Source: Kineosporia succinea (GTDB taxonomy: Bacteria > Actinomycetota > Actinomycetes > Actinomycetales > Kineosporiaceae). From it: 64,000 nt of DNA. Each line of letters opens with the position of its first letter. Position 1 is the stretch's first letter. Under the pieces are notes generated by a model, which made no database searches, was not told the origin of the DNA, and saw only the letters and a program-made list of their open reading frames with translations. Below are positions 1 through 17,210 of the stretch, in pieces. Made by a program: the position numbers and the translations under genes. Where the stretch lies: NCBI RefSeq assembly GCF_030811555.1, contig NZ_JAUSQZ010000001.1, positions 6,135,241 to 6,199,240 of the forward strand. Reading direction: 5' to 3'.

Positions 1-1111
1 GGATCCCGGTCATCCAGGCGCTCTTGGCGAGCCGGGCGCCGAGGCAGTAGTGCACCCCGAACCCGAACGACAGGTGGGTCTTGTCCTCGCGGTTCACGTC
101 GAACTCGTTCTTGGTGTCGCCGTGGTTCTTCGGGTCACGCCCGATACCGGCGAAGTCGACGAGCATGACGTCTCCCTTGGACACCTGGTGCCCGCCGATC
201 TCGACGTCCTGGGTCGCGAACCGGAACGGCAGGTGCGCCACCGGGGACTCGACCCGGAGGGTCTCCTCGAACACGTCGTCCCACGAGACCGCGCCGGACC
301 GCACGTCCGCCAGCAGTTTCGGGTCGTTCATGAGCGCGACCGAGGCGTGGGCCAGGGCGTTGACCAGGGTCTCCGAACCGGCCCCGAGGAGCAGGTGGAG
401 CGTCCCGATCATCTCCGAGTCGCTGAGGGCCGAGCCGTCCTCGTTCTTCGCGGCGATCATCCCCGAGGTCAGGTCGTCGCCCGGGTTGGCGCGCTTGTAG
501 GCGACCAGCTCGGTGATGGCGTCCTGCCACTGCTCGAGGTTGGCCTCGGCCACGTCGCTGGAGATCCGGGTGTCGATGTTCTTGTGGCCGCCGGCCAGCA
601 CGTCGGCGCGGCGCTCCTCCGGGACGCCGAACAGGTCGCACATGAGCCGGGTGGGCAGCTCCATGTGGAACAGGCCCTTGAGGTCCACCACCGTGCCGGG
701 TTCCTGAGCCGCCAGGTTGTCGAGCAGCTCACCGACCGTCGCCTCGATCTTCGGCTTCATGGCGTCGACCCGGCGCTGGGTGAACGCGCGCAGCAGCAGG
801 CTCCGCAGCCGGGCGTGGTCGGCGCCGTCCTGGGTCGCCATCGTGTCCATGGCCGCCCACGTGATCAGGGGCCAGCCGTTGGAGATCTCGCCCCGGATGT
901 ACTCCGGCCAGCTCTTGCGCGGGTTCTTGGACCACAGTTCCTGGTTGCCCATGATGGCCTTGCCGAGCTCGTAGTCGTGCACCGACCACGCGAGCACGCC
1001 GTCGGGCAGCTCGACCCGGGCGATGGGCCCCTGGTCGCGCAGCTTGTCGGTCTCCCCATGGGTGTCGGCGCCATCGGGGTCCAGAACGTACGGGCACACA
1101 CTGGCAGACAT
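1..1111 (-). CDS. Cytochrome P450, C-terminus cut by window edge
   Basis: Bacterial class I cytochrome P450, a haem monooxygenase that would hydroxylate or epoxidise an enediyne-core intermediate. The 370 codons visible start at an ATG (1109-1111, MSASVCPYVLDPDG). The I-helix AGSET motif lies near residue 245, the K-helix EETLR near 285, and the haem loop FGFGVHYCLG has its Cys ligand at residue 356. Only the last 30-40 residues are missing past base 1. It is divergent from the small-subunit/GMC pair across about 320 bp. A P450, a small protein and a GMC oxidase together recall, from memory, the E7/E8/E9 genes of C-1027-type clusters. The family is certain; the substrate is inferred. Confidence 0.93.
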   Translation of the reverse strand, partial: MSASVCPYVLDPDGADTHGETDKLRDQGPIARVELPDGVLAWSVHDYELGKAIMGNQELWSKNPRKSWPEYIRGEISNGWPLITWAAMDTMATQDGADHARLRSLLLRAFTQRRVDAMKPKIEATVGELLDNLAAQEPGTVVDLKGLFHMELPTRLMCDLFGVPEERRADVLAGGHKNIDTRISSDVAEANLEQWQDAITELVAYKRANPGDDLTSGMIAAKNEDGSALSDSEMIGTLHLLLGAGSETLVNALAHASVALMNDPKLLADVRSGAVSWDDVFEETLRVESPVAHLPFRFATQDVEIGGHQVSKGDVMLVDFAGIGRDPKNHGDTKNEFDVNREDKTHLSFGFGVHYCLGARLAKSAWMTGI

Positions 1112-1429
1112 CGTCACGACCTCCACAGCCGTTGATTTCGGTTCGCCGGAAGATACGAGCACACCGCCCGACTCCCGCCGCCCACGCTAGGCAGCGGGCC
1201 CGGCACGGGTCTTCCTCTGGCTTGCGCACTCTCGTTCGCTGAGGCCACCCGGGTCCCGGGGCGTGAGAGCGCACGGCAGGAGGCGGCCGGGGTGCGGGGA
1301 CCGGGTCGAGACTGTCGTCAGGGCCGGCGTCCCGCACGTGGGCCCGCCGGCATTCCGAGCCGGAGCAGAGTCCGGAGCGGAGAGCCGCATCACGAAGCCG
1401 GATCACCAAGCCGACCAGGGACGGGTTGC
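1112..1429. other. Divergent intergenic region, P450 / small subunit
   Basis: A 318-bp non-coding region between two divergent starts, presumably carrying both promoters. I see no gene with a convincing ribosome-binding site. An imperfect dyad sits near 1225-1275, where TGCGC-A-CTCTC is answered by GAGAGCGCA. I could not identify -10/-35 boxes with confidence. Confidence 0.4.
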
Positions 1430-2014
1430 ATGGACCAGCGGTACCCGGGACTCAGCCCGGATCAGATCCTGACCCTCGAAGCGTTCGCCGACACCGTGAT
1501 TCCCGGCCGGCGGCGCAGTGAGGACGACGTGGCGATCAGCGGGGTGCACGACACCCCGGGCGCGGTCGAGGCGGGGGCCCTGGACGTGCTCACCGACCCG
1601 GCCGCCGGACTCTCCGACGGGATCGGGGAGATGGCCGACCTGCTGCACGAGCGGGTGACCGAACTGATTCCGGCCGAACAGGTTCCGTCCCCGTCCGTGG
1701 TGGACGGCCGGGAGGTCCCGGTCTTCGTGCGGCTCACCTACGAGCAGCGCCGCCTGGTGGTCGCCGCGCTCACCGAGTCGTCGTACCCCGAACGCGAGAT
1801 CTGGTTCCTGGTGGCGCTGTTCGCGTACATGGCCTACGACAGCGCGCCGCACCTGGACACCGCCAAGGCCGTGCGGGACGGGCATCCGGGGCTCCTGCAG
1901 CTCGGTTTCGACCAGCCCGGCGACGACGGCCTCTGGCGCAACGACAAGCCCGGGTACGGCCGCCCGACCGCCCGGCCCCGGCCGGGGACCGACGAGAGAG
2001 GGAACCTGCCGTGA
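1430..2014 (+). CDS. Small partner of GMC oxidoreductase (gluconate 2-dehydrogenase subunit 3-like, DUF5987 type)
   Basis: A 194-residue protein resembling the small subunit that accompanies GMC flavoproteins; such subunits assist folding, export or FAD loading of the large subunit. It begins MDQRYPGLSPDQ, and the N-terminal LTLEAFADTVIPG motif is the typical opening of gluconate-dehydrogenase-subunit-3-like proteins. The ATG at 1430 is chosen because family homology begins there; the upstream open frame is low-complexity. Its stop overlaps the GMC start (GTGA, 2011-2014), so the two are translationally coupled and probably act together. It sits where C-1027-type clusters carry an unassigned E8 gene (from memory). 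Confidence 0.75.
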   Translation: MDQRYPGLSPDQILTLEAFADTVIPGRRRSEDDVAISGVHDTPGAVEAGALDVLTDPAAGLSDGIGEMADLLHERVTELIPAEQVPSPSVVDGREVPVFVRLTYEQRRLVVAALTESSYPEREIWFLVALFAYMAYDSAPHLDTAKAVRDGHPGLLQLGFDQPGDDGLWRNDKPGYGRPTARPRPGTDERGNLP

Positions 2015-3606
2015 GCGCGGTCGAGAGCGTGGACGTGGTGGTCATCGGCAGCGGCTTCGGGGGTGCGATCCCCGCCTATCACCTGGCCGCCGGCGGCGCC
2101 CGCGTGGTGGTGCTGGAACGCGGGCCCTGGCTCAGCAGCGGGGAACTCGAGCACAGCTTCAAGTTCGGCAGCTCGGCCACCCGGGCGTTCGACTTCACCG
2201 CGGGGTCCGGGATGAGCGTGCTGGGCGGGAACTGCGTGGGCGGCGGCAGCGTCGTGTACTTCGCGGCGATGCCCCGGCCGCCGGCCTTCGTCTTCGAGCG
2301 TCAGGGCAGCCTGGGCCGCCGGATCTGGCCCCGGGCGCTGTCCCGGGAGACGCTGAACCCCTGGTACGACCGGGTGACCGAGTCGGTGCAGGTCGAGGAC
2401 GCGACCTGGAAGGACATCAGCTACGGCGGCGGCCTGTGGGGGGCGCTGTGCGACCACGCCGGCCGCACCGCCAACCCGCTGCCCAGCGCGGTGGACGGTG
2501 AGAAGTGCGTGGACTGCAACTGGATGATGGCCGGGTGCCGGTTCGACGCGAAGAAGTCCCTCACCCTGAACTACCTGCCGGCGGCGGTGGCCCACGGCGC
2601 GCAGATCCGCCCGCTGCACGAGGTGCAGCAGATCACCCGGGAGGGCCAGGAGTACCTGGTCCACTTCCGCACGGTCGACCCCGTCGACTACCGGGTCCTG
2701 GGTGAGGAGGGCACGCTGCGGGCCGCCGTCGTGATCGTGGCCGCCGGCGCCGGGGCCACCCCGGTGATCCTGCAGCGCTCGGAGCCCGCCCTCGGGGCGA
2801 TGCCGCACGGGGTGGGACGGTACTTCTCCGGCAACGGGGAGCGCCTGAACGTCGTGGAGATCGACGAGGAGCGGGTCCGCTCCGTCCTGGGCCTGCAGGG
2901 GCGCAACGGCGGCGGCTACTCGGCCTTCCAGGTGGGACGCGGCCCGGTCGTGGCCAACTGGGACAAGCTCGACGCCGCGCTGCCGGAGTTCGAGCGGTAC
3001 TCCCTGGAACAGCTCTACTTCCCACCGGGTCTGGGCACCGTCCTGGCCCGGGCCGGGGGTCCCTCCCCGGACTGGTTCGGGCTGGACAAGAAGGAGCTCC
3101 TGGCCCGCTGGCAGTCCTGGCTGATCATCTTCGAGATGATCGAGGACGACAACGAGGGGGTGTTCGGTCCGCCGCCGCCGACCGGCAACTCGGTGCGGCT
3201 GGCCCAGCAGACGCTGGGCCGGGGGACCCTGCGCTACCGGCCCCGGCCGAGCACCCTGGCGGCCTGGGCCCGGGCCGACGCGGACATCTCCGACATCGTC
3301 GGGCGCGACGGCCTCGGCGTGGCCCGGCCCTGGACCAACGACCTGGTCGGCGCGTACACCGTGCACCCGCTGTCGTCCTGCCGGGTCGGTGACGACCCGG
3401 CCACCTCCGCCCTCGACAACGGTCACGAGTTGTACGGTCACCCGGGAATTTTCGTCACCGACGGGTCGGCCGTGCCGACCGCGCTGACGGTGAACCCCTC
3501 GATGACCATCGCCGCGATGGCCGAGCGGGCGGTCCCGAACATCGTCCGGCGCCTGCGGGAGGCGGGTCGCCCGGTCCGCTACGGCGCCCCGGTCCCCGTT
3601 CCCTGA
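2011..3606 (+). CDS. GMC-family FAD oxidoreductase (cholesterol-oxidase-like)
   Basis: A 531-residue flavoprotein alcohol oxidase or dehydrogenase. The N-terminal FAD-binding motif VVIGSGFGGA and LERG dinucleotide-fold end are at residues 10-40. A Cys-rich segment CVDCNWMMAGC lies near 165-176, as in cholesterol-oxidase-like GMC enzymes. The C-terminal active-site region has VHPLSSC with the catalytic His, then TVNPSMTIAAMAER with the conserved Asn. The GTG start overlaps the upstream stop. By position and partner it corresponds to the E9-type oxidoreductase of nine-membered enediyne clusters (from memory) and would oxidise a hydroxyl on the enediyne core. No signal peptide is visible, so it is cytosolic. 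The exact substrate is unknown. Confidence 0.88.
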   Translation: MSAVESVDVVVIGSGFGGAIPAYHLAAGGARVVVLERGPWLSSGELEHSFKFGSSATRAFDFTAGSGMSVLGGNCVGGGSVVYFAAMPRPPAFVFERQGSLGRRIWPRALSRETLNPWYDRVTESVQVEDATWKDISYGGGLWGALCDHAGRTANPLPSAVDGEKCVDCNWMMAGCRFDAKKSLTLNYLPAAVAHGAQIRPLHEVQQITREGQEYLVHFRTVDPVDYRVLGEEGTLRAAVVIVAAGAGATPVILQRSEPALGAMPHGVGRYFSGNGERLNVVEIDEERVRSVLGLQGRNGGGYSAFQVGRGPVVANWDKLDAALPEFERYSLEQLYFPPGLGTVLARAGGPSPDWFGLDKKELLARWQSWLIIFEMIEDDNEGVFGPPPPTGNSVRLAQQTLGRGTLRYRPRPSTLAAWARADADISDIVGRDGLGVARPWTNDLVGAYTVHPLSSCRVGDDPATSALDNGHELYGHPGIFVTDGSAVPTALTVNPSMTIAAMAERAVPNIVRRLREAGRPVRYGAPVPVP

Positions 3607-3695
3607 GGCTGCTCCGCGAGAGCCCTTCCCGGGAGCCCGTTCCCCTCGTCCTCACCGGCCCGACGACCGTCCGGGCCCCGCGACAGGAGGTATGC

Positions 3696-4232
3696 ATGTT
3701 CTTCGAACGCCACACCGATCTGGAGACGGCCTTCCCGGAGGTCTTCCGGCAGATGACCTCTCGCTCCTACCAGGACGAGAAGGCCCAGCGCCTGGAGGTG
3801 GTGGAGCACCGCTGCGACATCACCGACGCGGGCTCGGGGCGGATCACCGTGGTGAGCCGCCGCACCAGCCCGGCGGGCAGCGTGCCGGAACTCATCCGCG
3901 CCATGGTGAAACCCACGCTGACCGTCACGGAGACGGAGAGCTGGCACGCCCCGGACGGCGGGCCCGGTCGGCAGGGAGACTTCTCCGTCCAGGTCTCGGG
4001 GGCGCCGATCGCGGTGAAGGGCACCGTGCACCTGGACCCGGCCGGCACCGGCTGCCGGCTCACCTTCGAGGGGGAGCTGCGCACGACCGTCCCGCTCTTC
4101 CGCTCGGCGATCGAGTCGGCGGCCTCGGGCCGGGTCATCGACACCATCGAGGCCGAGTTCGCCCTCCTGCAGGACATCTTCCGCCCCGGCGCCGCCACCG
4201 ACGGTGCGGCCCGCCGGTCCGTCGACCAGTGA
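3696..4232 (+). CDS. DUF2505-like (SRPBCC-fold) protein
   Basis: A 178-residue protein resembling the actinobacterial DUF2505 family, a helix-grip (SRPBCC/START-like) fold with a hydrophobic cavity. It opens MFFERHTDLETAF, has the ETESWH segment near residue 85, and ends with the long helix VIDTIEAEFALLQDIF expected of the fold. A perfect AGGAGG lies 5 bases before the ATG. It sits 89 bp after the GMC gene and 26 bp before the next gene, inside the thioesterase/flavin-reductase operon. I do not know this family as a regular enediyne component. A ligand-binding, carrier or cyclase-like role for a polyene or enediyne is possible but only inferred from the fold. Confidence 0.72.
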   Translation: MFFERHTDLETAFPEVFRQMTSRSYQDEKAQRLEVVEHRCDITDAGSGRITVVSRRTSPAGSVPELIRAMVKPTLTVTETESWHAPDGGPGRQGDFSVQVSGAPIAVKGTVHLDPAGTGCRLTFEGELRTTVPLFRSAIESAASGRVIDTIEAEFALLQDIFRPGAATDGAARRSVDQ

Positions 4233-4258
4233 CCGCCCGACCCGAAGAGGAGATCACC

Positions 4259-5056: not shown

Positions 5057-5091
5057 GTTTCGACGGGGGAGATGGGGATCCGGGACCTTCG

Positions 5092-5532
5092 ATGAAGGAC
5101 TACTACGAGATCACGCATGTCGTCGGGTTCGAGGAGACGAACCTTGTCGGTAACGTCTACTACGCCAACTACGTGCGCTGGCAGGGCCGCTGCCGCGAGA
5201 TGTTCCTGTTCGAGCGGGCCCCCGCGGTCCTGCGCGCGGTCCAGGACGACCTGAAGCTGTTCACCATCCGGGTGAGCTGTGAGTTCTTCTCCGAGCTGAC
5301 GGCCTTCGACCCGATCTCGATCCGCCTGCGCCTGGTCGAGCTGGCGCAGACGCAGGTGGAGTTCTCCTTCGAGTACCTGCTGGTGAGAGACGGTGAGGAG
5401 CGGCTGGTGGCGACCGGCCGGCAGCGCATCGCCTGCATGCGGGGGCCGAACGGGGCCACCCGTCCCTGTCCGGTGCCGGCCGAGCTGGTGTCGGCGCTGA
5501 AGCCGTATTCGATGCATGGAGGGGTACGTTGA
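5092..5532 (+). CDS. tebC: Enediyne hot-dog thioesterase (E10/CalE7 type)
   Basis: A 146-residue single-domain thioesterase of the 4-hydroxybenzoyl-CoA-thioesterase-like hot-dog fold that releases the linear polyene from the ACP of the enediyne PKS. The diagnostic segment GNVYYANYVRWQGRCREM near residues 19-37 contains the Asn and Arg that this family uses in place of a catalytic Asp/Glu. Length is normal for SgcE10/CalE7/DynE7. The ATG at 5092 gives the conserved MKDYYEITHVV opening. Its stop overlaps the next start (TTGA, 5529-5532). It is not adjacent to the PKS, unlike many clusters: the SgcJ-type, DinB and DUF1702 genes lie between. Confidence 0.95.
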   Translation: MKDYYEITHVVGFEETNLVGNVYYANYVRWQGRCREMFLFERAPAVLRAVQDDLKLFTIRVSCEFFSELTAFDPISIRLRLVELAQTQVEFSFEYLLVRDGEERLVATGRQRIACMRGPNGATRPCPVPAELVSALKPYSMHGGVR

Positions 5533-6062
5533 CGTCGTCCGGGCACGAGGAGCGAGGGGTGGTCGAGGGGCATTTCCGTTCCGTGATGGGATGCTTCGTC
5601 ACCGGCGTCACCGTCATCTCGGTCGGCGGGGAGTGGGTGCACGGCATGACGGCGAACGCGTTCACCTCGGTCTCGCTGGAGCCGCCGATGGTGCTGGCCT
5701 GCGTGGCCGACACCGCCAGGATGAACCGGTGCATCGAGCAGCAGGGCAGTTTCGGGGTCTCCGTGCTGAGCCAGGAGCAGCACTCGACCGCGCGGCTGTT
5801 CGCCCGCCCGGCCCGGGAGCACGGCCTGCCGCAGTTCGACGAGGTGGGCTGGCATCCCGGGCCGGTCACCGGGGCCCCGCTCATCGACTCGGCCCTGGCC
5901 TGGCTGGAATGTGACGTGGTGCAGGCCTATCCGGGGGGTGACCACGTCATCTACGTGGGCCGGGTGCTGGGCTGCGTGATCGGGGCGCCGGGGGCGCCGC
6001 TGACGTTCTGGAACGGCCGGCTCGGGGCGGGAGCGCCCGCGGAGGGCACCCTGTCGCACTGA
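5529..6062 (+). CDS. Flavin reductase (HpaC/E6-type)
   Basis: A 177-residue NAD(P)H:flavin reductase-like protein (flavin_reduct domain) that supplies reduced flavin to a two-component monooxygenase. Family features are FRSVMGCFVTGVTVIS near the N-terminus, the flavin-binding GMTANAFTSVSLEPPMVL near residues 40-57, and VLSQEQ near 80. It resembles the E6 gene of nine-membered enediyne clusters; SgcE6 serves the C-1027 flavin-dependent hydroxylase. A TTG start overlaps the thioesterase stop; an internal GTG at 5559 is an alternative. A strong bidirectional terminator follows at once. A possible partner in the window is the FAD monooxygenase downstream of the PKS, but no partner is proven. Confidence 0.88.
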   Translation: MTSSGHEERGVVEGHFRSVMGCFVTGVTVISVGGEWVHGMTANAFTSVSLEPPMVLACVADTARMNRCIEQQGSFGVSVLSQEQHSTARLFARPAREHGLPQFDEVGWHPGPVTGAPLIDSALAWLECDVVQAYPGGDHVIYVGRVLGCVIGAPGAPLTFWNGRLGAGAPAEGTLSH

Positions 6063-6072
6063 CCGGGCACCG

Positions 6073-6118
6073 CGAACGGCCCGGTCACCTGGGAACATCC
6101 AGGTGACCGGGCCGTTCG
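6073..6118. terminator. Bidirectional hairpin terminator
   Basis: Perfect 20-bp inverted repeat (arms 6073-6092 and 6099-6118) with a 6-nt loop, lying between two convergent genes that end at 6062 and 6132. There is no U-tract, as is usual in high-GC actinobacteria. Confidence 0.88.
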
Positions 6119-6131
6119 GTGTGCGGGGCGA

Positions 6132-6530
6132 TCAGGCCGGCGCGTTGCGGGGGGTGTTCTGGTAGGCGGCCAGCTTCCAGGAGCCCTCGGCCCGGGAGAG
6201 CACCCAGACCGCCCGGATGGCGTTGCCCGCCTGCACTTCCTGGTCACCGGCGTAGAGCACGCCCCCCTCGGTCACCACGGCCACCGCGCCCTCGGCCAGG
6301 GGGGTGATCGCGATCGGGGTGCCGGTGACCCGGGTGCCCTGGTAGGGGCCGGCGTACGCGGCGCGCAGGAACTCGCGGATCTTCTCGCGCCCCTGCAGGA
6401 AACGGCCCGGCAGGGTCATCGTGCCCTCGGCGACGAACAGGTCGGCGAACGCGTCGGAATCATGCGCGGCCCAGGCGGAAACCACGGCGGGCAGCACGTC
6501 GGTGGGCGAATCGATCGTCGGTGCGGTCAT
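6132..6530 (-). CDS. SgcJ/EcaC-type NTF2-fold (SnoaL-like) protein
   Basis: A 132-residue cone-shaped NTF2/SnoaL-fold protein of the SgcJ/EcaC group (TIGR02246-like). Family features are AWAAHDSDAFADLF, EGTMTLPG, YQGTRVTGTP and the C-terminal KLAAYQNTP. SgcJ belongs to the C-1027 cluster, where it is reported to help the PKS and thioesterase pathway rather than act as a classical enzyme. Its presence next to a PksE-type PKS strengthens the nine-membered assignment. The ATG at 6528-6530 is preceded by AGGAG. It is a single gene, transcribed leftward and convergent with the thioesterase/flavin-reductase operon. Confidence 0.9.
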   Translation of the reverse strand: MTAPTIDSPTDVLPAVVSAWAAHDSDAFADLFVAEGTMTLPGRFLQGREKIREFLRAAYAGPYQGTRVTGTPIAITPLAEGAVAVVTEGGVLYAGDQEVQAGNAIRAVWVLSRAEGSWKLAAYQNTPRNAPA

Positions 6531-6733: not shown

Positions 6734-7246
6734 ATGTCGGTCGATGCGGTGCGGGATCTTCTGCTGGCCCAGCTGGCGGAGGTGCGTCAGGATGCCGTCG
6801 GTCAGTTCGAGGGCCTGAGCGAGGCCCAGGCCCACGAGCACGTGGGGCCCGGTCACAAGAACATGCTCGGCCTGCTCCACCATCTCACCGTGGCCTGCGA
6901 ACGGTTCTGGGTGCGCGCCGTTTTCGCCGCCGACCAGCAGGCCGTGCGCGACTTCCGGATCGATCCGGCGGCCCCCGAGGGAGGCGTGCCGTGGCTGGTC
7001 GCGCCGGAGGTCCCCACGTCCCAGGTGATCGATCGCTACCTGGGCGAGGTGGCGCTCGTCGACGACTTGCTGACCCGCTGTGACCTCGACGAGCCGGTGC
7101 GCTGGTGGCCGCTGTGGCGCAGCGACCAGCGTCCCGTCTCGCTGGCGGAGGTCGTGCTCGCGGTGATCCTCGAAACCGCCAGTCACAACGGGCAACTGGC
7201 CGGTGCGCGGCATCTCCTCGTGGGCAGCGGTGTCACCCACCACTGA
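6734..7246 (+). CDS. DinB/DUF664-family protein
   Basis: A 170-residue four-helix DinB-fold protein (DUF664-like). The metal-binding histidines are visible in LLHHLTVACERFW near residue 49 and in ASHNGQLAGARHL near the C-terminus. Relatives are metal-dependent, often thiol-linked (mycothiol or bacillithiol) transferases or hydrolases. Its TGA (7244-7246) directly abuts the convergent DUF1702 gene stop (7247-7249), leaving no room for a terminator. It is the second of three DinB/MDMPI-fold proteins in the first 20 kb. Its role in the cluster is unknown; thiol-dependent modification or protection is a guess. Confidence 0.8.
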   Translation: MSVDAVRDLLLAQLAEVRQDAVGQFEGLSEAQAHEHVGPGHKNMLGLLHHLTVACERFWVRAVFAADQQAVRDFRIDPAAPEGGVPWLVAPEVPTSQVIDRYLGEVALVDDLLTRCDLDEPVRWWPLWRSDQRPVSLAEVVLAVILETASHNGQLAGARHLLVGSGVTHH

Positions 7247-8257
7247 TCAGGCCGGTGCGCCGGCCCTCTCGCCGGTCAGGGCCTGCCAGCGCCCGGCGAT
7301 CGTCTGGCGCCACTGCTCGTACAGCGGGCGGCCCACGCCCACCGGTGAGGAGTCGCCCGGCCGGGTGTCGAGCCCGAGCTGGTGCGCCGCCGCCACGTCC
7401 AGTCCGGTGAGCGCGGCGACGGACCGCGCCGAGCTGTCCGGGACCAGACCGGAGTAGCTGCGCGCGGTTGCCGCGAACACGGCCCCGACCGCGAGCTGCG
7501 CGGCGTCCGGCCCGGCCTGTTGCTGCAGCGAGGTCAGGGCGGGCGCGTCGGCGCCCCCGGCGAAACAGGCGGCGAGGCCGACCCCGCCCCACAGGTCGCT
7601 GCGGCGCCCGGCGGCGAATCCGCCCACGGCGCCGGCCACGTCGTCCACCCGGCCGCCGTGGATGAACCACAGCGCCCGGCCGATGCCCTGGTCGCACACG
7701 CGCTGGAAGTAGCCGGCATCGCCGTCCCACGGGTAGCCCGGCTCCCGGCGCTGGCGGCCCACCACCCGGTCGGTCTCGAAGAAGGCCCGGTCGAACCCGT
7801 AGCCGTCCACCGCCAGCCACGACATCACGGGATGGAACGGCGAGGCCGGGAGGTCGGGCACGACGTCCTTCCAGAGCGGGCGCGGCAGCCGGGCCATCGC
7901 GAAGCCGATGCCGATGTAGGCCAGGAACAGGTGGCGGCCCGCGTCACCGGTCAGCAGGGTCCGCACCCGGTCGCCGCCGCGCGGCATGCGGTCGAGGATC
8001 GTGAGGGCCATCGTGACGCCCTCGTAGGCGAAACCCTGCAGGGCCGGGTCCACCAGGGCCACCCGCAGGTCGAGTTCGGGCAGCCGGGCGCCGTCGATGC
8101 CCCACTCGAAGCCGCAGATCACCGCCCGGGCCACCGATTCCAGGTCCGGGCGCGGCCGGGTTCCCGGCGGCAGCGGGAACCCGCGCCGCACCGCCCCGAC
8201 CTCGTCCAGCGCGGGTGCGAGGATCTGGCGCCGCAGGGCGCCGGTCACCGTGGCCAT
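7247..8257 (-). CDS. unbL: DUF1702-family enediyne cassette protein (UnbL type)
   Basis: A 336-residue protein matching the DUF1702 family, which is largely defined by the unbL gene of enediyne warhead cassettes; its biochemical function is unknown. Recognisable features are the N-terminal RRGFPLP, the central FAYEGVTMALTILD and GGDRVRTLL, and the GPLF-like segment replaced here by YIGIGFAMARLPRP near 140-155. The ATG (8255-8257) is preceded by GGAGG; a longer upstream reading is less likely. It is divergent from the PKS with 280 bp between, so the two may share a control region. The usual cassette companions UnbU and UnbV are not in this window. Confidence 0.85.
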   Translation of the reverse strand: MATVTGALRRQILAPALDEVGAVRRGFPLPPGTRPRPDLESVARAVICGFEWGIDGARLPELDLRVALVDPALQGFAYEGVTMALTILDRMPRGGDRVRTLLTGDAGRHLFLAYIGIGFAMARLPRPLWKDVVPDLPASPFHPVMSWLAVDGYGFDRAFFETDRVVGRQRREPGYPWDGDAGYFQRVCDQGIGRALWFIHGGRVDDVAGAVGGFAAGRRSDLWGGVGLAACFAGGADAPALTSLQQQAGPDAAQLAVGAVFAATARSYSGLVPDSSARSVAALTGLDVAAAHQLGLDTRPGDSSPVGVGRPLYEQWRQTIAGRWQALTGERAGAPA

Positions 8258-8537: not shown

Positions 8538-11500
8538 GTGGACGATCGCATTGCAGTAGTCGGCCTGGGGCTACGGTACCCGGACGCAGACACGGTTCAG
8601 GATTTCTGGGACAACATCCTGGCCGGTCGCCGGGCGTTCCGGAACCTGCCCGCCAGCAGGATGAATCCGGCCGACTACTGGTCGGCCGACCCGCAGGCAC
8701 CCGACCGGTTCTACAGCCGGCGGGCCGCGGTCCTGCGCAACTTCGAGTTCGACCGGGCGCGGTTCGCGATCAGTGGCACGACCTTTCGCGCCACCGACCT
8801 GACCCACTGGCTGGCGCTGACCGTGGCCGAGGAGGCCTGGGCGGACGCGGGTCTGGAGACGGAAGACCCCTCGGCCCGGCCCCTGCGGGAGCGAGCGGCG
8901 GTGGTCCTGGGGAACTCCCTGACGGGTGAGTTCAGCCGGGCGTCGATCATGCGGGTGCGCTGGCCCTACGTGCGCCGGACGGTGGGCGAGGCCCTGGCCG
9001 GCCGGGGCTGGGACAGTGCCGAGGTCGCCGGTTTCCTGGACACTCTCGAGAGCGACTACAAGGCCCCGTTCGCTCCGGTGGGGGTGGACACCCTGGCCGG
9101 CGGCCTCTCGAACACCATCGCCGGAAGGATCTGCAACTACTTCGATTTCAAGGGCGGCGGGTACACGGTCGACGGGGCCTGCTCGTCCTCCCTGCTGTCG
9201 GTGGTCAATGCCGCCCAGCTGCTGCGCAGCGGTGACGTCGACGTGGTCCTCAGCGGAGGGGTGGACCTGTCCATCGACCCGTTCGAGGTGATCGGCTTCG
9301 CCAAGACCGGTGCCCTCGCGGCGCACGAGATGCGGGTGTACGACGCCGAGTCCCAGGGATTCTGGCCGGGCGAGGGCTGCGGTGTCCTCGTGCTGATGCG
9401 CGAGGCGGACGCGCTGGCCCGGGGCGCCCGGATCTACGCCGTGATCTCCGGCTGGGGCATCTCCTCCGACGGCGCCGGCGGCTTGACCCGCCCGGAGGAG
9501 ACCGGTCACCGGCGGGCCCTGCGCCGGGCCTACGACCGGGCGGGACAGCCGATCTCGACCGTCTCGTACTTCGAGGGACACGGGACCGGGACGGCCGTCG
9601 GCGACGAGACCGAGATCCGCGCCCTGAGCGGTGCCTTCGCCGAGGGAGGCGGCCGCGACCGGGTGGCCCTGGGCACGGCCAAGGGGAACATCGGGCACAC
9701 CAAGGCCGCGGCCGGTGCCGCCGGGCTGATCAAGGCCTGCCTGACCCTCAGTCATCAGCTGATCCCCCCGGGCACCGGCCAGAAGACCCCGCACCCGGCC
9801 CTGACCGGCTCCTCGCTGCACGTGCCCCGCACGCTCGAGCTGTTCCCGTCCGGGCCGACACCGCGGGTCGGGGTCTCGGCGATGGGCTTCGGCGGTATCA
9901 ACGCACACCTCGTGGTCGAGGCGCCGGCCGGCGTGCCGCGGCGCGCGACGATCGACCGGCGCAGCCGGGACCTGGTCGCGGGACGCCAGGACGGCGAGCT
10001 CCTGGTGCTGGCCGCGCCCACGAGAACGGCTCTGCTGGAACGGATCGACACGGTCGCCCGGCGCCTGGCGCCGATGTCCTACGCCGAGATCACCGACCTG
10101 GCCGGGGAACTGGCCGCCGCGGTGCACCCGGCGCACACCTGGCGCGGTGCGGTGGTGACGAGCGACCCCGACGTCGCGGTCGAGCGGCTGGGCGAGCTGC
10201 GCACGGCGGTCGAGCACGGCCGACCGGGCGATCCCGGGCGGGGCGTGCTGTTCGTGCCCGCCCGATCCGGGCGGCCCGCCCCGGCCCGGATCGGCTTCCT
10301 CTTCCCCGGACAGGGGGCGCCACCGCGCTCGGGCACCTTCCTGGCCTCCCGGTTCCCGCAGCTGGACGTCCCGGCGGCACCCGACGTGCCGGGGGAGCCG
10401 CACGAGACCCAGGTCGTCCAGCCGCGCACCGTGGCCCTGTCGGTACAGGCCCTGGCCGTGCTGCGCCACCTCGGGATCGAGGCGAGCGGTGCCGTCGGGC
10501 ACAGCCTCGGCGAGGTCAGCGCCCTGCACTGGGCCGGGGCCCTGAGCGCGGCGGAGGCCGTGGACCTGGCCACCACCCGCGGCGACGTGATGGCCCGCGA
10601 GAGCATCACGGGCGGCACGATGGCGGGGATCTTCGCCCCGTCCGACGTCGTCCAGGGCCTGCTGGTCGAGCCCACCGTGATCGCCGGGTACAACGGGCCC
10701 CGGCAGATCGTGGTGGCCGGGCCGGTGGCCGCGGTCCGGCAGACCATGGCGGCGGCGCAGCGGGCCGGGATCGCCGGCGCCGAGCTGTCGGTGTCGCACG
10801 CCTTCCACTCCCCGGACGTGGCCCCGGCGGTCCGGGCCTTCGAGAAAGTCCTGACCGAGAGCCATTTCGGGGACGTCGGACGGCACGTCGTGTCGACCGT
10901 GACCGGGGAACCGCTCACCGCGCCGGACACCCAGGCGCAGCGGGACGAGGTGCTGCGCTCCTACCTGACCCAGCAGATCGCGGCACCCGTGCGGTTCGCC
11001 GACGCCCTGGGCGTCCTGGCCGGACAGGTCGACCTGCTGCTCGAGGTCGGTCCCGGCCGGACCCTGACCGGTCTGGCCGCCGAGTCCTGGCCGGGCACCC
11101 CGTGCCTGCCGGTGCAGGCGGACTCCGACAGTGCGATCCCGCTGCTGACCGCACTGGGAGCCTGCTTCGCCGCCGGGGCCCCGATCGACCTGGCCGAGCT
11201 GTTCAGCGGGCGGCTGGTGCGCCCGCTGCCGGCCGAGATGACCTTCCTGACCAACCCGTGCGAGGCGGCCCCCGACACCTTCGCGGGCGGCAGGCAGGAC
11301 AGCGACGCCGGGGACCCGGCGAGCGAGATGACCCAGGTGACCGAGGCGAGCAGCGCTGCCGGCGCTGTCGGGGCTGCCGGCGCTGTCGGGGTCGACGACC
11401 AGGAACCCCTTTCCGTCCTGCGCCGTGTCGTGGCCCAGCACATGGAACTACCGCTGGAGCACATCACCCCGGACCTGCATCCACTCGACGAGCTGCACCT

Positions 11501-14480
11501 GAGCTCCATCACGGTCTCGCAGCTGGCGGTCGAGACCTCCCGGCAACTCGGCAAGGGGCCCCTGTCGGCCGCCACCAACCTCGCCACGGTCACCCTGAGC
11601 GAACTGGCCGAAGCCATCGCGGCCACCGGCGCCGCCGACGAGCAGTCCACGGACGCGTTCAGCGGCATCGAGCCCTGGGTCCGGGCCTACCGCACCGACT
11701 ACGCGCCCGCCGCGTCCCCCGCCCCGTCCGAACCCGTCCCGGGCACCTGGACGGTCCTGGGCGCCACGCACGAGGAGGCCGCGGCGACCGCCACCGCCCT
11801 GGCCACCGAACAGGTCGGCGACGGCGTCCTGGTGGTCGTCGACGAGCGGCGGCCGCTGACCACCGGAGCCCTGCGCGAGGGCGTCCGGGCCGTTCTGGAG
11901 TCCCCCGGCAGCCGGCTGGTGGTGATCGACGCGGGGGAGCAGGGGGCCGCCGCGTTCACCCGCTCCTTCGCCCTGGAACACCCCGAGGTCCCGACGATCT
12001 GCCTGACCGTCGGCCGGCTGCCCCAGGTGAGCGAGCTTCCCGCCCTGGTGGCCCGGGAGGTCCGGGCCCAGGCGACGGGCACCTGGCTGGAGACCCGGCT
12101 GGACAGCATCGGCGTGCGCCGCCGCCCCCGGCTGGAGCTGTGGCCGGTTCCCGACGCCTCCGACCGGGCCCCGCTGGACCCGGGGGACGTCCTGCTCGTC
12201 ACCGGCGGCGGCAAGGGGATCGCGGCCGAGGCCGGCCTCGCCCTGGCCCGCCGCTGGGGAATCCGGCTCGCCCTGATCGGCCGCTCCGGTCCCACCGGCG
12301 ACCCGGAGCTCGCCGCCAACCTGAAACGCATGGAGGACAGCGGTGTCCGGTTCGCCTACGCCCGGGCCGACGTGACCTCCCCGACGCAGGTGGCCGCGGC
12401 GGTGCGCTCCCTCACCGAACAGCTCGGCCCGGTCCGCGGCCTGGTGCACGGAGCCGGGCTCAACGAGCCGACCCGGGTGGAACAGCTCACCGACGAGCAG
12501 ATCGAGGCCGCGCAGGCCGTGAAGGTCGGTGGTCTCGAGACCGTCCTGGCCGCGCTCGACCCGGGCGCCCTGCGCCTGCTGGTCGGCTTCGCCAGCATCA
12601 TCGGGCGGGCCGGCCTGGACGGCGAGGCCCACTACGCGGCGGCCAACGAACGGCTCACCGCCCGCTGCGAGGAGTTCGCGACCACCCACCCGGACTGCCG
12701 GGTGCACTCCCTGGAGTGGTCGGTCTGGTCCGGCGCCGGGATGGGGGAGCGGCTCGGGGTGCTGCACGCGCTGCTGCGTCGCGGCATCTCCCCGATCTCC
12801 CTCGACCAGGGGCTGGACGTGCTGGTCCGGCTGCTGGAGGCCCCGGACGTCCCGGTCACCCTGGTGGTCAGCGGGCGCACCGGTGACTGGGCCACGTTGT
12901 CCTCCGACCGTCCCGACCTGCCGCTGGGCCGGTTCCTGGAGAAGGTCCAGGTCGACTACCGCGGGGTGGAACTCGTCGCCGACAGCGCCCTGAGCCTGGA
13001 GCGCGACCCGTACCTGGTCGACCACTGGCTGGACGGCGACCACCTGTTCCCGGCCGTGATCGGCCTGGAGGCGATGAGCCAGGTCGCCGGCGCCGCCGCC
13101 GGCCTGCGCGGTCCGCTCCAGGTGACCGAGGTCGAGTTCCTGCGCCCCGTGGTCATTCCCGCCCAGGGCGAGGAGACGCTGAGGATCTGCACGCTGGTGG
13201 AGGGCGACACCGTCCGGGCCGTGGTCCGCGTCGGGGCCACCGGCTTCGCGGCCGACCACTTCCGGGCCACGTTCCGGATGCGCCCACCGACCACCGACGC
13301 GCCGCCGGCCCCGCTCGTGCCGGCCGGGGCGTCCCTGCCGGCCGGTGACCTCTACGGCTCGTTGTTCTTCCAGGGCAAACGGTTCCAGCGGGTGCGGACC
13401 TACCTCGACCTGGGGGCCCGGCGCGCCGTCGCGGAACTGGACGCCCACGACCACGACCAGTGGTTCGCCGAGTACCTGCCCGACCAGAGGGTGCTGGGCA
13501 GTCCGGGGGTGCGCGACGCGATGATGCACGCGCTGCAGTGCTGCGTGCCGAACGCGGTCCTGCTGCCGGTCGGGGTGGGCCGGATCGACCTGGCACCGGA
13601 CTTCGGTGACGGACCGGTCCTGCTGCACGCCAACGAGATCGGGCAGCGCGGCGACGACTACTTCTACGACGTGGTGGCCCGCGACCCCTCGGGCCGGGTC
13701 CTGGAGTACTGGGAGGGCATGCACCTGCGGGCGGTCCGGCCCTCCGACAGCCCACCGGTGGCCGCGCTCATGGCCGCCCACGTGCAGCGCGACCTGGAGG
13801 TGATCGGGGACACCGAACTCGCGGTCGGGATGGACGGTTCGGCCGCGACCGGGGAACGGGGAGACGGCACCCGCCGGGCCATGGCCCGGGCCCTCGGCCG
13901 CGACGTCCAGGTCCGCCATCGCCCCGACGGGCTCCCGGAGGTCGACGGGGAACACGTGACCGTCTCGCACGCCGGTGCCCTGACCGTGGTGGTGGTCGGG
14001 ACCGACTCCGTCGCCTGCGACCTGGAGCCGGTGGGCGAGCGCCCGGCCGACACCTGGGCGGCCATGCTGGGACCGGCCGGGGCGGCCGCCTCGGCCCTGC
14101 TGCGCCAGGTGCCCGGCGCCGACGCCCAGGTCGAGAACACCCGGGTCTGGGGCGCCGTCGAATGCCTGCGCAAGCTGGGGCGCTTCGACGAGGCCCTGAC
14201 CGTGCCGGCCGACGCGAGGCAGGGGCACTGGACCCGTCTGGAGGCCGGTCGCACCCGGCTGTTCAGCCGCGTCATCGCCGGGGACGGCACCGGCGGCCGG
14301 CTCGTGCTCACCGTCGCCCTGCCCGCCGCCGGCCCGGCCGGACCCGTTCAGGGACACCGGATCGCAGCATCCACGGATAAGGACGGCGGACGGCACCGAC
14401 CTACAGTCGGTGAGGAAGCCGGGACGGCGTCCCACCCTGCCGGAACCCGGCGGGGTCGTGAAGGGGAGGAACAGTCATGA
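8538..14480 (+). CDS. pksE: Iterative enediyne polyketide synthase (PksE: KS-AT-ACP-KR-DH-PPTase)
   Basis: A 1980-residue single-module iterative type I PKS that builds the polyene precursor of an enediyne core. Domains: KS 5-455 with Cys215 (DGACSSS), His348 (EGHGTGT) and His387 (NIGHTKA); AT about 570-870 with Ser656 (GHSLGE) and a malonyl-type HAFHS; ACP about 955-1035 with phosphopantetheine Ser990 (LSSITVSQL); KR about 1210-1450 with VTGGGKGIA and Tyr1366 (HYAAAN); DH about 1480-1710 with His1496 (DHWLDGDHLFP); C-terminal PPTase about 1740-1950 with ACDLEPV and the WGAVECLRK helix, which self-loads the ACP. The order is diagnostic for PksE. GTG start with GGGAGGGG upstream. An 18-bp tandem duplication lies in the AT-ACP linker. 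The stop overlaps the next gene by four bases. Confidence 0.97.
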   Translation: MDDRIAVVGLGLRYPDADTVQDFWDNILAGRRAFRNLPASRMNPADYWSADPQAPDRFYSRRAAVLRNFEFDRARFAISGTTFRATDLTHWLALTVAEEAWADAGLETEDPSARPLRERAAVVLGNSLTGEFSRASIMRVRWPYVRRTVGEALAGRGWDSAEVAGFLDTLESDYKAPFAPVGVDTLAGGLSNTIAGRICNYFDFKGGGYTVDGACSSSLLSVVNAAQLLRSGDVDVVLSGGVDLSIDPFEVIGFAKTGALAAHEMRVYDAESQGFWPGEGCGVLVLMREADALARGARIYAVISGWGISSDGAGGLTRPEETGHRRALRRAYDRAGQPISTVSYFEGHGTGTAVGDETEIRALSGAFAEGGGRDRVALGTAKGNIGHTKAAAGAAGLIKACLTLSHQLIPPGTGQKTPHPALTGSSLHVPRTLELFPSGPTPRVGVSAMGFGGINAHLVVEAPAGVPRRATIDRRSRDLVAGRQDGELLVLAAPTRTALLERIDTVARRLAPMSYAEITDLAGELAAAVHPAHTWRGAVVTSDPDVAVERLGELRTAVEHGRPGDPGRGVLFVPARSGRPAPARIGFLFPGQGAPPRSGTFLASRFPQLDVPAAPDVPGEPHETQVVQPRTVALSVQALAVLRHLGIEASGAVGHSLGEVSALHWAGALSAAEAVDLATTRGDVMARESITGGTMAGIFAPSDVVQGLLVEPTVIAGYNGPRQIVVAGPVAAVRQTMAAAQRAGIAGAELSVSHAFHSPDVAPAVRAFEKVLTESHFGDVGRHVVSTVTGEPLTAPDTQAQRDEVLRSYLTQQIAAPVRFADALGVLAGQVDLLLEVGPGRTLTGLAAESWPGTPCLPVQADSDSAIPLLTALGACFAAGAPIDLAELFSGRLVRPLPAEMTFLTNPCEAAPDTFAGGRQDSDAGDPASEMTQVTEASSAAGAVGAAGAVGVDDQEPLSVLRRVVAQHMELPLEHITPDLHPLDELHLSSITVSQLAVETSRQLGKGPLSAATNLATVTLSELAEAIAATGAADEQSTDAFSGIEPWVRAYRTDYAPAASPAPSEPVPGTWTVLGATHEEAAATATALATEQVGDGVLVVVDERRPLTTGALREGVRAVLESPGSRLVVIDAGEQGAAAFTRSFALEHPEVPTICLTVGRLPQVSELPALVAREVRAQATGTWLETRLDSIGVRRRPRLELWPVPDASDRAPLDPGDVLLVTGGGKGIAAEAGLALARRWGIRLALIGRSGPTGDPELAANLKRMEDSGVRFAYARADVTSPTQVAAAVRSLTEQLGPVRGLVHGAGLNEPTRVEQLTDEQIEAAQAVKVGGLETVLAALDPGALRLLVGFASIIGRAGLDGEAHYAAANERLTARCEEFATTHPDCRVHSLEWSVWSGAGMGERLGVLHALLRRGISPISLDQGLDVLVRLLEAPDVPVTLVVSGRTGDWATLSSDRPDLPLGRFLEKVQVDYRGVELVADSALSLERDPYLVDHWLDGDHLFPAVIGLEAMSQVAGAAAGLRGPLQVTEVEFLRPVVIPAQGEETLRICTLVEGDTVRAVVRVGATGFAADHFRATFRMRPPTTDAPPAPLVPAGASLPAGDLYGSLFFQGKRFQRVRTYLDLGARRAVAELDAHDHDQWFAEYLPDQRVLGSPGVRDAMMHALQCCVPNAVLLPVGVGRIDLAPDFGDGPVLLHANEIGQRGDDYFYDVVARDPSGRVLEYWEGMHLRAVRPSDSPPVAALMAAHVQRDLEVIGDTELAVGMDGSAATGERGDGTRRAMARALGRDVQVRHRPDGLPEVDGEHVTVSHAGALTVVVVGTDSVACDLEPVGERPADTWAAMLGPAGAAASALLRQVPGADAQVENTRVWGAVECLRKLGRFDEALTVPADARQGHWTRLEAGRTRLFSRVIAGDGTGGRLVLTVALPAAGPAGPVQGHRIAASTDKDGGRHRPTVGEEAGTASHPAGTRRGREGEEQS
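11355..11390 (+). repeat. 18-bp perfect tandem duplication in PKS linker
   Basis: Two identical 18-bp units (11355-11372 and 11373-11390) encode AAGAVG twice in the Ala/Gly linker before the ACP. In frame, so linker length changes by six residues per unit. Confidence 0.9.
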
Positions 14481-15781
14481 CCAGTCGCGGCCATGCCGTG
14501 GTCATCGGGGGAAGCATCGCGGGACTCCTGACCGCACGGGTGCTCTCGGACCACTTCGAGCAGGTCACGGTGCTGGACCGCGACCAGCTGCCGGAAGGGC
14601 CCGACACCCGCCGGGCCGTGCCCCAGGGACACCACATCCACGCGCTCCTGGCCCGGGGCCAGCAGATCCTCTCGGACCTGTTCCCCGGCTTCGTCGAGGA
14701 GCTGGTGGCCAAAGGAGTCCCGATCGGCGACTTCGGAACCAGCCTGACCTGGTACTTCAACGGCGTCCCGATCCAGAAGACGCCCACGGGCACCACCTGC
14801 GTGGCGGCCGGCCGCCCGCTCCTGGAGCGCAGCATCCGGGCCCGGGTGGCCCAGCTGCCGACGGTCGAGGTGCGCGACGGCGTCGAGGTCCTGGGATGGA
14901 CGCACACCGCCGACCGCGGTCGGGTCACCGGGGTGAGTGTGCAGGAGCCGGGCGGTCGTCAGGAGCTGGAGGCCGACCTGGTGGTCGACGCGTCGGGCCC
15001 CGGATCCCGCTCACCCCGCTGGCTGGAGGATCTCGGCTATCCGGCCCCGCGCCAGGACAGCGTGAAGATGGACCTGATCTACACCACCCAGGACTTCTAC
15101 GGCCCCCTGGACGAGGACCCGATCGGCGACGACATCGCCATGCTGCCGGTGGCGACCCCGAAAATGCCGCGGGGAGCCATCTTCGCGCGACTCGGCGACC
15201 GGTACGCCATCTCGCTGACCGGCATCCTCGGCGACCAGCCCCCGACTGACCGCGAGGGCCTGCTCGCCTACACCGACAGCCTCCCCGTCCCCGAGATCGC
15301 CCGCGCGGTGCGGCTGGCCGCACCGATGGGGGAGGCCAAGTCGTTCCGGTTCCCGGCCAGCGTCCGGCACCGCTACGACAAGATGCGCGCCTTCCCCGAC
15401 GGGCTGCTCGTGCTCGGCGACGCCTTCAGCCGGTTCAACCCGGTCTACGGCCAGGGCATGACCGTCGCCGCGCTGGCCGCGGAACTGCTCGCCCACCACC
15501 TGGCCGAGGGGCCGGTGCGGCCCGCGCGGTTCCACCGGGCGCTCAGCGGGCGGGTGAACGCGGCCTGGAGCATGGCGGCCGGCGCCGACCTGGGATTCCC
15601 CGGGGTGCAGGGAAAACGCACCCCGGCCACGGTGATCGGCAACGCGTACATCACCCGGATGCAGCGCGCGGCGGCCACCGATCCGGTGCTGTCGCGGACC
15701 TTCCTGCGGGTCGCCGGGCTGGTGGACCCCCCGACCGCACTGCTGCGGCCCTCCGTGGTGGGCCGCACACTGGCCGGCTGA
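14477..15781 (+). CDS. FAD-dependent monooxygenase coupled to the PKS
   Basis: A 434-residue flavoprotein of the PHBH/squalene-epoxidase-like group. The FAD-binding Rossmann motif is GGSIAGLLTARVL near residue 10, with LDRDQLPEG following the second strand. DASGPGSRSPRWL near residue 170 and LVLGDAFSRFNPVYGQGMT near 312-330 are the GD motif region that contacts FAD. The ATG overlaps the PKS stop (ATGA) behind GGAGG, so it is made together with the PKS. A likely role is epoxidation or hydroxylation of the enediyne core, generating the epoxide for the hydrolase encoded next. That order of steps is inferred from gene order. Confidence 0.85.
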   Translation: MTSRGHAVVIGGSIAGLLTARVLSDHFEQVTVLDRDQLPEGPDTRRAVPQGHHIHALLARGQQILSDLFPGFVEELVAKGVPIGDFGTSLTWYFNGVPIQKTPTGTTCVAAGRPLLERSIRARVAQLPTVEVRDGVEVLGWTHTADRGRVTGVSVQEPGGRQELEADLVVDASGPGSRSPRWLEDLGYPAPRQDSVKMDLIYTTQDFYGPLDEDPIGDDIAMLPVATPKMPRGAIFARLGDRYAISLTGILGDQPPTDREGLLAYTDSLPVPEIARAVRLAAPMGEAKSFRFPASVRHRYDKMRAFPDGLLVLGDAFSRFNPVYGQGMTVAALAAELLAHHLAEGPVRPARFHRALSGRVNAAWSMAAGADLGFPGVQGKRTPATVIGNAYITRMQRAAATDPVLSRTFLRVAGLVDPPTALLRPSVVGRTLAG

Positions 15782-15931
15782 CCAGGACCCACCGACGCAC
15801 CACCCGTCACGACACCTGCACACCCGGCCCGGTGGTGCGGACCACGCCCGGAATCCGCACCCGGAGGACCGTTCCCGCACACCGGAAGAAGGGCCACTAT
15901 CATGGCGTTCGACCCGACGGAGGAGCTTGTC

Positions 15932-17089
15932 ATGCAGCCTTTCCAGGTCCACATCCCCGATGCCGACATCGAGGAACTCCGACGGCGCCTGACCCAGACC
16001 CGCTGGCCCGACCTCGTCGACGTCGGCTGGGAGCGCGGCGCCCCACTGTCGTACATCAAGGAACTCGCCGAGTACTGGCGCGACGATTTCGACTGGCGCG
16101 CCCAGGAGAGCCTGATCAACCAGTACCCCCAGTTCACCACCGAGATCGGTGGCGACACGATCCATTTCCTGCACGTGCGCTCGCCGGAGCCGGACGCGAC
16201 GCCGATGCTGATCACGCACGGCTGGCCCGGTACGCCGTTCGAATTCCTTGATGTCATCGGCCCTCTCACCGATCCCCGGGCCCACGGCGGCGACCCGGCC
16301 GACGCGTTCCACCTCGTCATCCCCTCGCTGCCCGGCTTCGGGCTGTCGGGCCCGACGAAGACCACCGGGTGGGACCTGGGCCGGATCGCGTTCGCCTGGA
16401 CCCAGCTGATGGCCGGGCTCGGCTACGAGAAGTACGTCGCGCAGGGCGGTGACATCGGTGCCTTCACCTCACTGCTGCTGGGGGTGATGGACGCCCCGCA
16501 CCTGCTCGGCGTGCACGTCAACCTGCTGCAGACCAACCTCAGCGGCGAGCCCGGTGAGGAGGAGACGCTCACCGACGACGACCGCACCCGGCTGGCCCGC
16601 TCCGACTACTTCATGTCCCAGCTCGCCGGCCCGATGACGATGCAGTCGATGCGCCCGCACGTGATCGGCTACATGGTGAACGACTCGCCGGTGTCCCAGC
16701 TGGCCTACCTGCTGGAGATGTTCCGGTGGTGGGCGCAGACCGAGAAGCTCCCGGAGGACGCGGTGGCCCGCGACCGGATGCTGGCGCACATCTCGCTGTT
16801 CTGGTTCACCGCGACGGGTGGCTCGGCCGCGCAGGCGCACTACGAGCTGAAGCCGTACCTGCCCATCAACACCCTGATCGGCCGGTCCCCGACGATCGAG
16901 GTGCCCGTCGGGGTCGCGGTCTACCCCGGGGCCCTCTTCCACCCGGTGCGCAGCCTGGCCGAACGGGACTTCAAGCAGATCGTGCACTGGAAGGAACTCG
17001 AGCGGGGCGGCCACTTCTCGGCCATGGAGGAGCCGGACCTGTTCGTGGACGACGTGCGGGAGTTCGGCCGGACGCTGAAGAGTCTCTGA
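15932..17089 (+). CDS. Epoxide hydrolase (alpha/beta hydrolase, SgcF/KedF type)
   Basis: A 385-residue epoxide hydrolase with an N-terminal EHN domain and a C-terminal alpha/beta-hydrolase domain. The oxyanion motif HGWPG is near residue 96, the nucleophile is Asp174 in QGGDIG, and the catalytic His361 lies in GGHFSAMEEP. Enediyne epoxide hydrolases (SgcF, NcsF2, KedF) open the core epoxide to a vicinal diol and are typical of nine-membered clusters. The ATG at 15932 follows GGAGGAG at ideal spacing; an in-frame ATG at 15902 is an alternative adding ten residues. It lies 150 bp after the monooxygenase and before a strong terminator, ending the PKS operon. Confidence 0.9.
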   Translation: MQPFQVHIPDADIEELRRRLTQTRWPDLVDVGWERGAPLSYIKELAEYWRDDFDWRAQESLINQYPQFTTEIGGDTIHFLHVRSPEPDATPMLITHGWPGTPFEFLDVIGPLTDPRAHGGDPADAFHLVIPSLPGFGLSGPTKTTGWDLGRIAFAWTQLMAGLGYEKYVAQGGDIGAFTSLLLGVMDAPHLLGVHVNLLQTNLSGEPGEEETLTDDDRTRLARSDYFMSQLAGPMTMQSMRPHVIGYMVNDSPVSQLAYLLEMFRWWAQTEKLPEDAVARDRMLAHISLFWFTATGGSAAQAHYELKPYLPINTLIGRSPTIEVPVGVAVYPGALFHPVRSLAERDFKQIVHWKELERGGHFSAMEEPDLFVDDVREFGRTLKSL

Positions 17090-17102
17090 CCCCACGGTCA
17101 CA

Positions 17103-17136
17103 GCGACGGGGCGGACCTCCCGGTCCGCCCCGTCGC
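17103..17136. terminator. Terminator of the PKS-oxygenase-epoxide hydrolase unit
   Basis: Perfect 15-bp inverted repeat (17103-17117 and 17122-17136) with a 4-nt loop, 13 bp after the epoxide hydrolase stop. Confidence 0.87.
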
Positions 17137-17210
17137 GGCACCACATCGGCGAGAAGCTCGCTCGCACCACGTGTCCGGCTCGTGCATCCACGGGAAAGGT
17201 GACCCCCACC

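Follow-up and report, generated by a model that had tools for sequence, protein, structure and literature searches.

Few enediynes, natural products that cut DNA, have been characterised, with 11 compounds and four cycloaromatised forms counted in 2016 in a passage of PMC5181780, which also defines the enediyne polyketide synthase (PKS) cassette as the genes E3, E4, E5, E and E10. Passages of the same source name the E2 gene as a predictor of nine-membered clusters, ten-membered clusters lacking E2 and carrying R3 instead, and the title of its reference 13 describes two iterative type I PKSs in the neocarzinostatin cluster, which is stated in part of PMC3725421 to use two epoxide hydrolases. 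Here we analyse a stretch of 64,000 nucleotides (the window, C1:6135241-6199240) of the Kineosporia succinea genome, a single contig of 8,065,021 bases, and its flanks. Homologues of SgcJ and SgcF-type epoxide hydrolases, named after the C-1027 cluster, mark nine-membered clusters, and both occur here. The gene content makes it quite likely that the locus is a complete nine-membered enediyne cluster of the neocarzinostatin type, directing a chromoprotein-free product other than C-1027. The cluster is an orphan, and its product is probably new because the decoration genes differ, pointing to a probably chlorinated aromatic moiety, no sugar and no carrier protein.

The initial annotation had described positions 1..17136 of the window as a partial nine-membered-type cluster. 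All gene types that it named are present in Pfam and NCBIfam scans, by which gene families were assigned after calling genes with a codon-usage script (starts are predicted). The partial appearance arises because the window edge cuts the cluster, which reaches about 34 kb beyond the left window edge, where E3, E4 (UnbV), E5 (UnbU) and tailoring genes lie, and also continues beyond 17136, where TetR, acyl-CoA carboxyltransferase, DUF6008 and CMD genes matching other enediyne loci reach 23177. The whole cluster spans about 57 kb, from window position -34185 to 23177, with 43 called genes; left-flank positions are negative window coordinates (genome coordinate = value + 6135240), and strands are given as + or -. 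The edges were set where they are because the edge genes have homologues in the C-1027 plasmid or in other PksE loci. The comparison set comprised the best 80 of at least 540 confirmed PksE-like candidates in genome contigs, and may omit the host genome and those close to it. Plasmid SGLP1 (NZ_CP013739.1) served as the C-1027 reference, with 38 of 41 (L013) and 24 of 31 (L134) annotated proteins compared and hypothetical, replication and transposase genes left out; several Sgc labels of these proteins are our presumption.

All cassette members were found, E and E10 in the window and the others at -29247 to -25022. PksE (8538..14480, +; 47% identical to SgcE over 1947 aa) is one intact open frame of 1980 aa with the complete domain order KS-AT-ACP-KR-DH-PPTase that had been claimed for it, the KS, AT, KR and DH being assigned by Pfam and the ACP and PPTase only by motifs aligned to SgcE. 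Its catalytic motifs include KS Cys215, His348 and His387, GHS in the AT, DELHLSS in the ACP, and the C-terminal PPTase-like VACDLE and WGAVECLRK. No other PKS of the enediyne type was seen in the genome: of 20 matches, the one ranking next is partial, at 35%, and lies in a 4366-aa frame. Frames of 2007-4366 aa that resemble type I PKSs, at C1:7498000-7524000, probably form a modular PKS cluster. The nearest PksE among the 80 loci is 51% identical (53% over aligned tree columns). A FastTree phylogeny of 83 PksE rows, in which the midpoint root is arbitrary and long-branch placement is unsure per the program's warning, puts the window protein on a long branch (0.94), in a set of four rows with a congener (G005) and two Nocardia brasiliensis proteins, within a set of nine rows, and outside the 79-row group holding SgcE. 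As placed by this tree, PksE is a deep branch among PksE proteins. The expectation of the initial annotation that it would fall among them thus held, yet its position as a long branch outside the SgcE group means that the tree alone leaves ring size unsettled, the more so as the ten-membered proxies in it were G005, with its DynE7-like thioesterase, and CalE7-like loci, and no named ten-membered reference.

The assignment to the nine-membered type, which the initial annotation had also made, is instead supported by an E2-type DUF1702 gene (7247..8257, -), an SgcJ homologue and two SgcF-type epoxide hydrolases, with E3, E4 and E5 completing the core. The E2 homologue is 52% identical to SgcE2 versus 36% to SgcE3, and a DUF1702 tree of 127 rows places it inside the E2 clade, which has 52 rows and a local support of 99, so that the absence of E2 expected of ten-membered clusters does not apply here. 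The left copy (-25996..-25022, +; 43% to both SgcE3 and SgcE2) falls in the E3 clade (74 rows, support 81), and a third copy (-21014..-19911, +) sits on a very long branch outside both. None of the 74 comparison loci with DUF1702 has three copies in its flanks. The SgcJ homologue (6132..6530, -), a SnoaL/NTF2-like protein, is 52% identical to SgcJ and has 4i4k and 4ovm, both SgcJ, as best Protein Data Bank (PDB) matches. The epoxide hydrolases EH1 (15902..17089, +) and EH2 (-12406..-11240, -) are 50% and 56% identical to SgcF. A further epoxide hydrolase-like gene, 40% identical to SgcF, lies at window 58407-59537, about 41 kb right of EH1.

Several observations weigh against this reading. When 19 DUF1702 rows were added, the E2 and E3 groups (55 and 76 rows) did not overlap, but support for the E2 branch fell to 0; the left copy scores nearly equally with SgcE3 (243 bits) and SgcE2 (221 bits), and groups with the G005 copy. 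In the nine-row PksE group, L064 and L071 have an E2 gene, L067 and L038 do not, and L035 and L083 have none that is clear, a check that left out L084; in added genomes, where the type of DUF1702 copies was assigned by bit scores, an E2-type gene occurs in 4 of the 11 named genomes searched. Furthermore, PksE clusters with long branches including that of G005, a congener with a thioesterase 68% identical to the ten-membered-type DynE7. The E10 thioesterase (5092..5532, +) is 66% identical to CalE7, only slightly less than the 69% that it shares with SgcE10, as measured on 4i4j, a structure whose aligned part matches C-1027 E10 at 100%. Taken together, the branching of PksE and of the left DUF1702 near G005 and the CalE7 resemblance would fit a ten-membered cluster of the dynemicin or calicheamicin type, which we nevertheless regard as unlikely, given the E2-type gene, the SgcJ homologue and the two SgcF-type epoxide hydrolases, and an E10 just 46% identical to DynE7. 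The E4 protein groups with L067 and L071 (support 99), both also in the nine-row PksE group, and the E3 copy with G005 (94). A mosaic core, with E3-E5 drawn from another lineage than E, was considered and not borne out; the placements of E5 and E10 are weak.

Around this nine-membered-type core, the periphery looks like that of neocarzinostatin rather than that of C-1027. A neocarzinostatin-type set, the defining gene list of which is partly our presumption, is present in full: a second iterative PKS (-11202..-5914, -; KS-AT-DH-KR-ACP), an AMP ligase of the aryl-CoA ligase type (-5660..-3975, +), an O-methyltransferase (-18630..-17635, -; best PDB match 3i53), a P450 and the two epoxide hydrolases. 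EH1 is identical to 4i19 at 313 of 385 residues (81%) and EH2 to 5f4z at 236 of 384 (61.5%); we take 4i19, 5f4z and 3i53 to be structures from the neocarzinostatin producer, and 3i53 to be NcsB1. The likeness to the cluster of Streptomyces carzinostaticus, with its two iterative PKSs and two epoxide hydrolases, is thus one of gene types and PDB matches rather than gene by gene. It differs in that an apoprotein was not found here, nor sugar genes in the cluster, and in the presence of an additional tryptophan-type halogenase.

The halogenase (-3956..-2391, +; 521 aa) lies on the strand of the ligase gene, with its start 18 bp past the end of that gene, carries GxGxxG and WxWxIP motifs, and has tryptophan 5- and 6-halogenases as its best PDB matches. 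No homologue occurs in the flanks of the best 80 PksE loci, and across 99 genomes of the order the only match at E<=1e-100 is the one in the host itself. Among the plasmid matches listed, eight for the iterative PKS (at most 34%) and eight for the halogenase (at most 43%), none named a characterised pathway. The simplest reading is that the enzyme chlorinates the aromatic acid; weighing against this, both the naphthoate product and the halogenase acting on it are predictions, and an enzyme of the tryptophan-halogenase type could accept a different substrate. N1999A2 is a possible product type.

In the proposed pathway, PksE would make a linear polyene, which E10 would release, as we take to be usual for its family, and accessory proteins would convert the polyene into the bicyclic enediyne core. 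The FAD-dependent monooxygenase (14477..15781, +), whose gene overlaps the pksE stop and whose product is 54% identical to a C-1027 protein (record 39812-41167), and the epoxide hydrolases would have the core epoxidised and then opened to a diol. Separately, the iterative PKS would supply an aromatic acid, most probably a naphthoate, which P450s and the O-methyltransferase would modify, the halogenase would chlorinate, and the aryl-CoA ligase would activate for attachment.

Self-protection would probably rely on export and on small binding or sacrificial proteins. Candidates are an MFS transporter (-14965..-13586, +), a cation/proton antiporter (-34185..-32884, +), a glyoxalase-like protein (-13164..-12802, +), a DUF2505 protein (3696..4232, +; Pfam 1.6e-31), which we take to be START-like, and a DinB/mycothiol-S-transferase family protein (6734..7246, +; Pfam MST 1.2e-20). 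The DUF2505 gene stands between E9 and E11, overlapping E11 by 4 bp, in the closely spaced E8-E6 run. With E<=1e-8 and coverage of half the protein as limits, the best 80 loci contain no homologue of either this protein or the DinB-family one. For the DUF2505 protein, AlphaFold gave a model of mean pLDDT 44, which is too poor to use. A passage of PMC8488855 describes CalU16, a protein of START type, as a resistance protein for calicheamicin. A bolder proposal, which we hold only tentatively and think rather doubtful as a whole, is a carrier-free, sugar-free, nine-membered enediyne with a chlorinated aromatic acyl group, a deep PksE and a fully dispersed cassette, in which the halogenase was recruited to the ligase operon and small proteins of glyoxalase-fold, DUF2505 and DinB/mycothiol type replace the chromoprotein.

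A C-1027-like product, as had initially been suggested, would be consistent with most core genes having C-1027 homologues at 42-69%. Counterparts were found for E, E2-E6, E8-E11, J, SgcF, the alkylhydroperoxidase and R1/R2; for the FAD monooxygenase; for the three leftmost genes, the antiporter (36%), the PEP-binding protein (-32849..-31518, +; 42%) and the FAD/NAD-binding protein (-31525..-29669, -; 48%); and for the O-methyltransferase (52%). Other tailoring homologues are more distant: the P450s are 28-32% identical to C-1027 proteins, an E7-like P450 is just 32% identical to its counterpart, and the ligase is 28% identical to the adenylation enzyme. A region of 138 kb surrounding the cluster yielded no homologues of the NDP-sugar, aminomutase, condensation, carrier or aminodeoxychorismate proteins of C-1027, the sole exception being a 116-residue stretch at 32% identity to SgcA1, antisense to the iterative PKS; sugar genes were not found in the cluster, the search for them being confined to the cluster region. 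For the apoprotein, no PF00960 (Neocarzinostatin-family) match exceeded the cut-off genome-wide (best 19.1 bits versus 25); 14 sub-threshold stretches all lie in frames of 1685-4555 aa, and such matches also occur in 4 of 14 control genomes. The left flank, where UnbU, UnbV, sugar, tyrosine and apoprotein genes had been anticipated, hence yielded the first two but not the others. A C-1027-like product was rejected in the absence of counterparts for the beta-tyrosine, benzoxazolinate, deoxysugar and apoprotein genes, and a C-1027-like producer is very improbable: gene order is unlike, the halogenase is just 23% identical to the C-1027 halogenase, and the locus has a second iterative PKS, one type I PKS being present among the C-1027 genes listed in an incomplete plasmid gene table.

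The cassette is also unusually scattered. E10 lies 3 kb from PksE, separated by the SgcJ homologue, the DinB-family gene and E2, and E5 (-27307..-26246, +; 58% to C-1027 E5) lies about 35 kb away. Layout was counted over 82 loci (matches at 70% coverage or more, flanks mostly 10 kb), among them Asanoa, G005, the C-1027 record and L043, a near copy of that record. With 1.5 kb from E as the limit, 31 loci have both E5 and E10 close by, 42 have E10 alone and 9 have E5 alone; PksE next to neither is a layout found in 0 of the 82. The split cassette appears less unique because E4 or E5 was not found in the 10-kb flanks in 15 of the 82 loci (13 with full flanks), and because loci with E5 or E10 apart from E are already described in part of PMC5181780. 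The scatter could indicate a decayed or hybrid locus whose nine-membered genes were dispersed by rearrangement and which no longer makes an enediyne, with the aromatic PKS and halogenase belonging to a separate pathway. We consider this improbable, since the frames of PksE, the halogenase and the two epoxide hydrolases are open and show catalytic motifs, and the aromatic genes also sit with an enediyne cluster, on one contig, in Asanoa siamensis.

E4 (-29247..-27304, +) is 46% identical to its C-1027 counterpart, and the right-hand run of core genes consists of E8 (DUF5987; 1430..2014, +; 43% to C-1027 E8), the GMC oxidoreductase E9 (2011..3606, +; 67% over 530 aa), E11 (TIGR03084; 4229..5056, +; 53%) and the E6 flavin reductase (5559..6062, +; 46%). 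To the left lie an alkylhydroperoxidase-like gene with a C-1027 homologue (-24913..-23855, +), AraC (-22836..-22327, +) and StrR-like (-22283..-21306, -) regulators, P450s at -19914..-18706 (+) and -16457..-15207 (+), a ferredoxin/FAD reductase (-17449..-16457, +), a DUF1905 protein (-13524..-13222, +), a 101-aa protein (-12735..-12430, -), an FAD-linked oxidase (-2314..-1007, -), an alpha/beta hydrolase (-993..-136, -) and a 416-aa cytochrome P450 (Pfam P450) that crosses the window start (-139..1111, -). Right of EH1 are a TetR regulator (17199..17891, +; homologue in 12 of the 80 loci), an SgcR2-like AraC regulator (17922..18653, -; 40% to C-1027 R2), an acyl-CoA carboxylase carboxyltransferase subunit assigned by Pfam (19887..21533, -; 21 of 80), a DUF6008 protein (21815..22585, -; 55% to a gene beside E10 in G005) and a CMD-family protein (22590..23177, -; 53% to a C-1027 CMD protein; 12 of 80). 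The four best homologues of the carboxyltransferase are 67-72% identical, although PksE itself reaches only about 50%; a dedicated malonyl-CoA supply is a possible role.

The nearest relative found for the periphery is the uncharacterised cluster of Asanoa siamensis NBRC 107932 (L076; L127-L130, 80 kb, G013:C9:40001-120000), where the set lies on one contig. Shared genes include the iterative PKS (61-62% identity), ligase (56%), window-edge P450 (74%), hydrolase (52%), MFS transporter (60%), glyoxalase-like protein (50%), FAD monooxygenase (62%), EH2 (62%), O-methyltransferase (61%), FAD oxidase (46%) and 101-aa protein (53%). Its core differs in being C-1027-like, with a PksE 65% identical to SgcE and 47% to the window PksE; its contig has NTP-transferase, 4,6-dehydratase and epimerase-type genes that were not found in the Kineosporia cluster, and its 80 kb hold no homologue of the halogenase. 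The Asanoa locus also has GtrA/GT2 and PMT-type glycosyltransferase genes, seemingly unusual for an enediyne locus. Among 17 genomes chosen from the best 80 loci, the iterative PKS has matches at E<=1e-200 in 10, and exceeds 50% identity only in Asanoa (62%) and Amycolatopsis vastitatis (60%). The congener G005 (L103-L106, G005:C6:62741-142740) shares the genus, the E3-E4-E5-E-E10 genes and the DUF6008 neighbour, but it is dynemicin-like, as its thioesterase indicates, with one E3-type DUF1702 in 80 kb and a PksE 42% identical to that of the window. One small genus thus appears to hold both dynemicin-like and nine-membered-type enediyne clusters.

No enediyne cluster of Kineosporia or Asanoa and no halogenated neocarzinostatin-type enediyne was recognised among the papers listed in searches of open-licence PMC; at least two of these, PMC10073151 and PMC6562664, contain both the words enediyne and Kineosporia, and the passages of the former are unrelated. 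Chlorinated cycloaromatised enediynes are already known from PMC10381858, where chloride capture is proposed for jejucarbosides. With at least 540 PksE-like stretches in genome contigs, such stretches are common and a further orphan cluster is in itself no rarity; what would be new is the predicted decoration. A PCR survey described in passages of PMC5181780 was designed on the E5/E and E/E10 junctions, and since both adjacencies are broken here, a survey of that kind would probably miss this cluster. One aromatic tailoring set is paired with two distinct core lineages, in this cluster and in that of Asanoa, which points to exchange between core and periphery in enediyne clusters.

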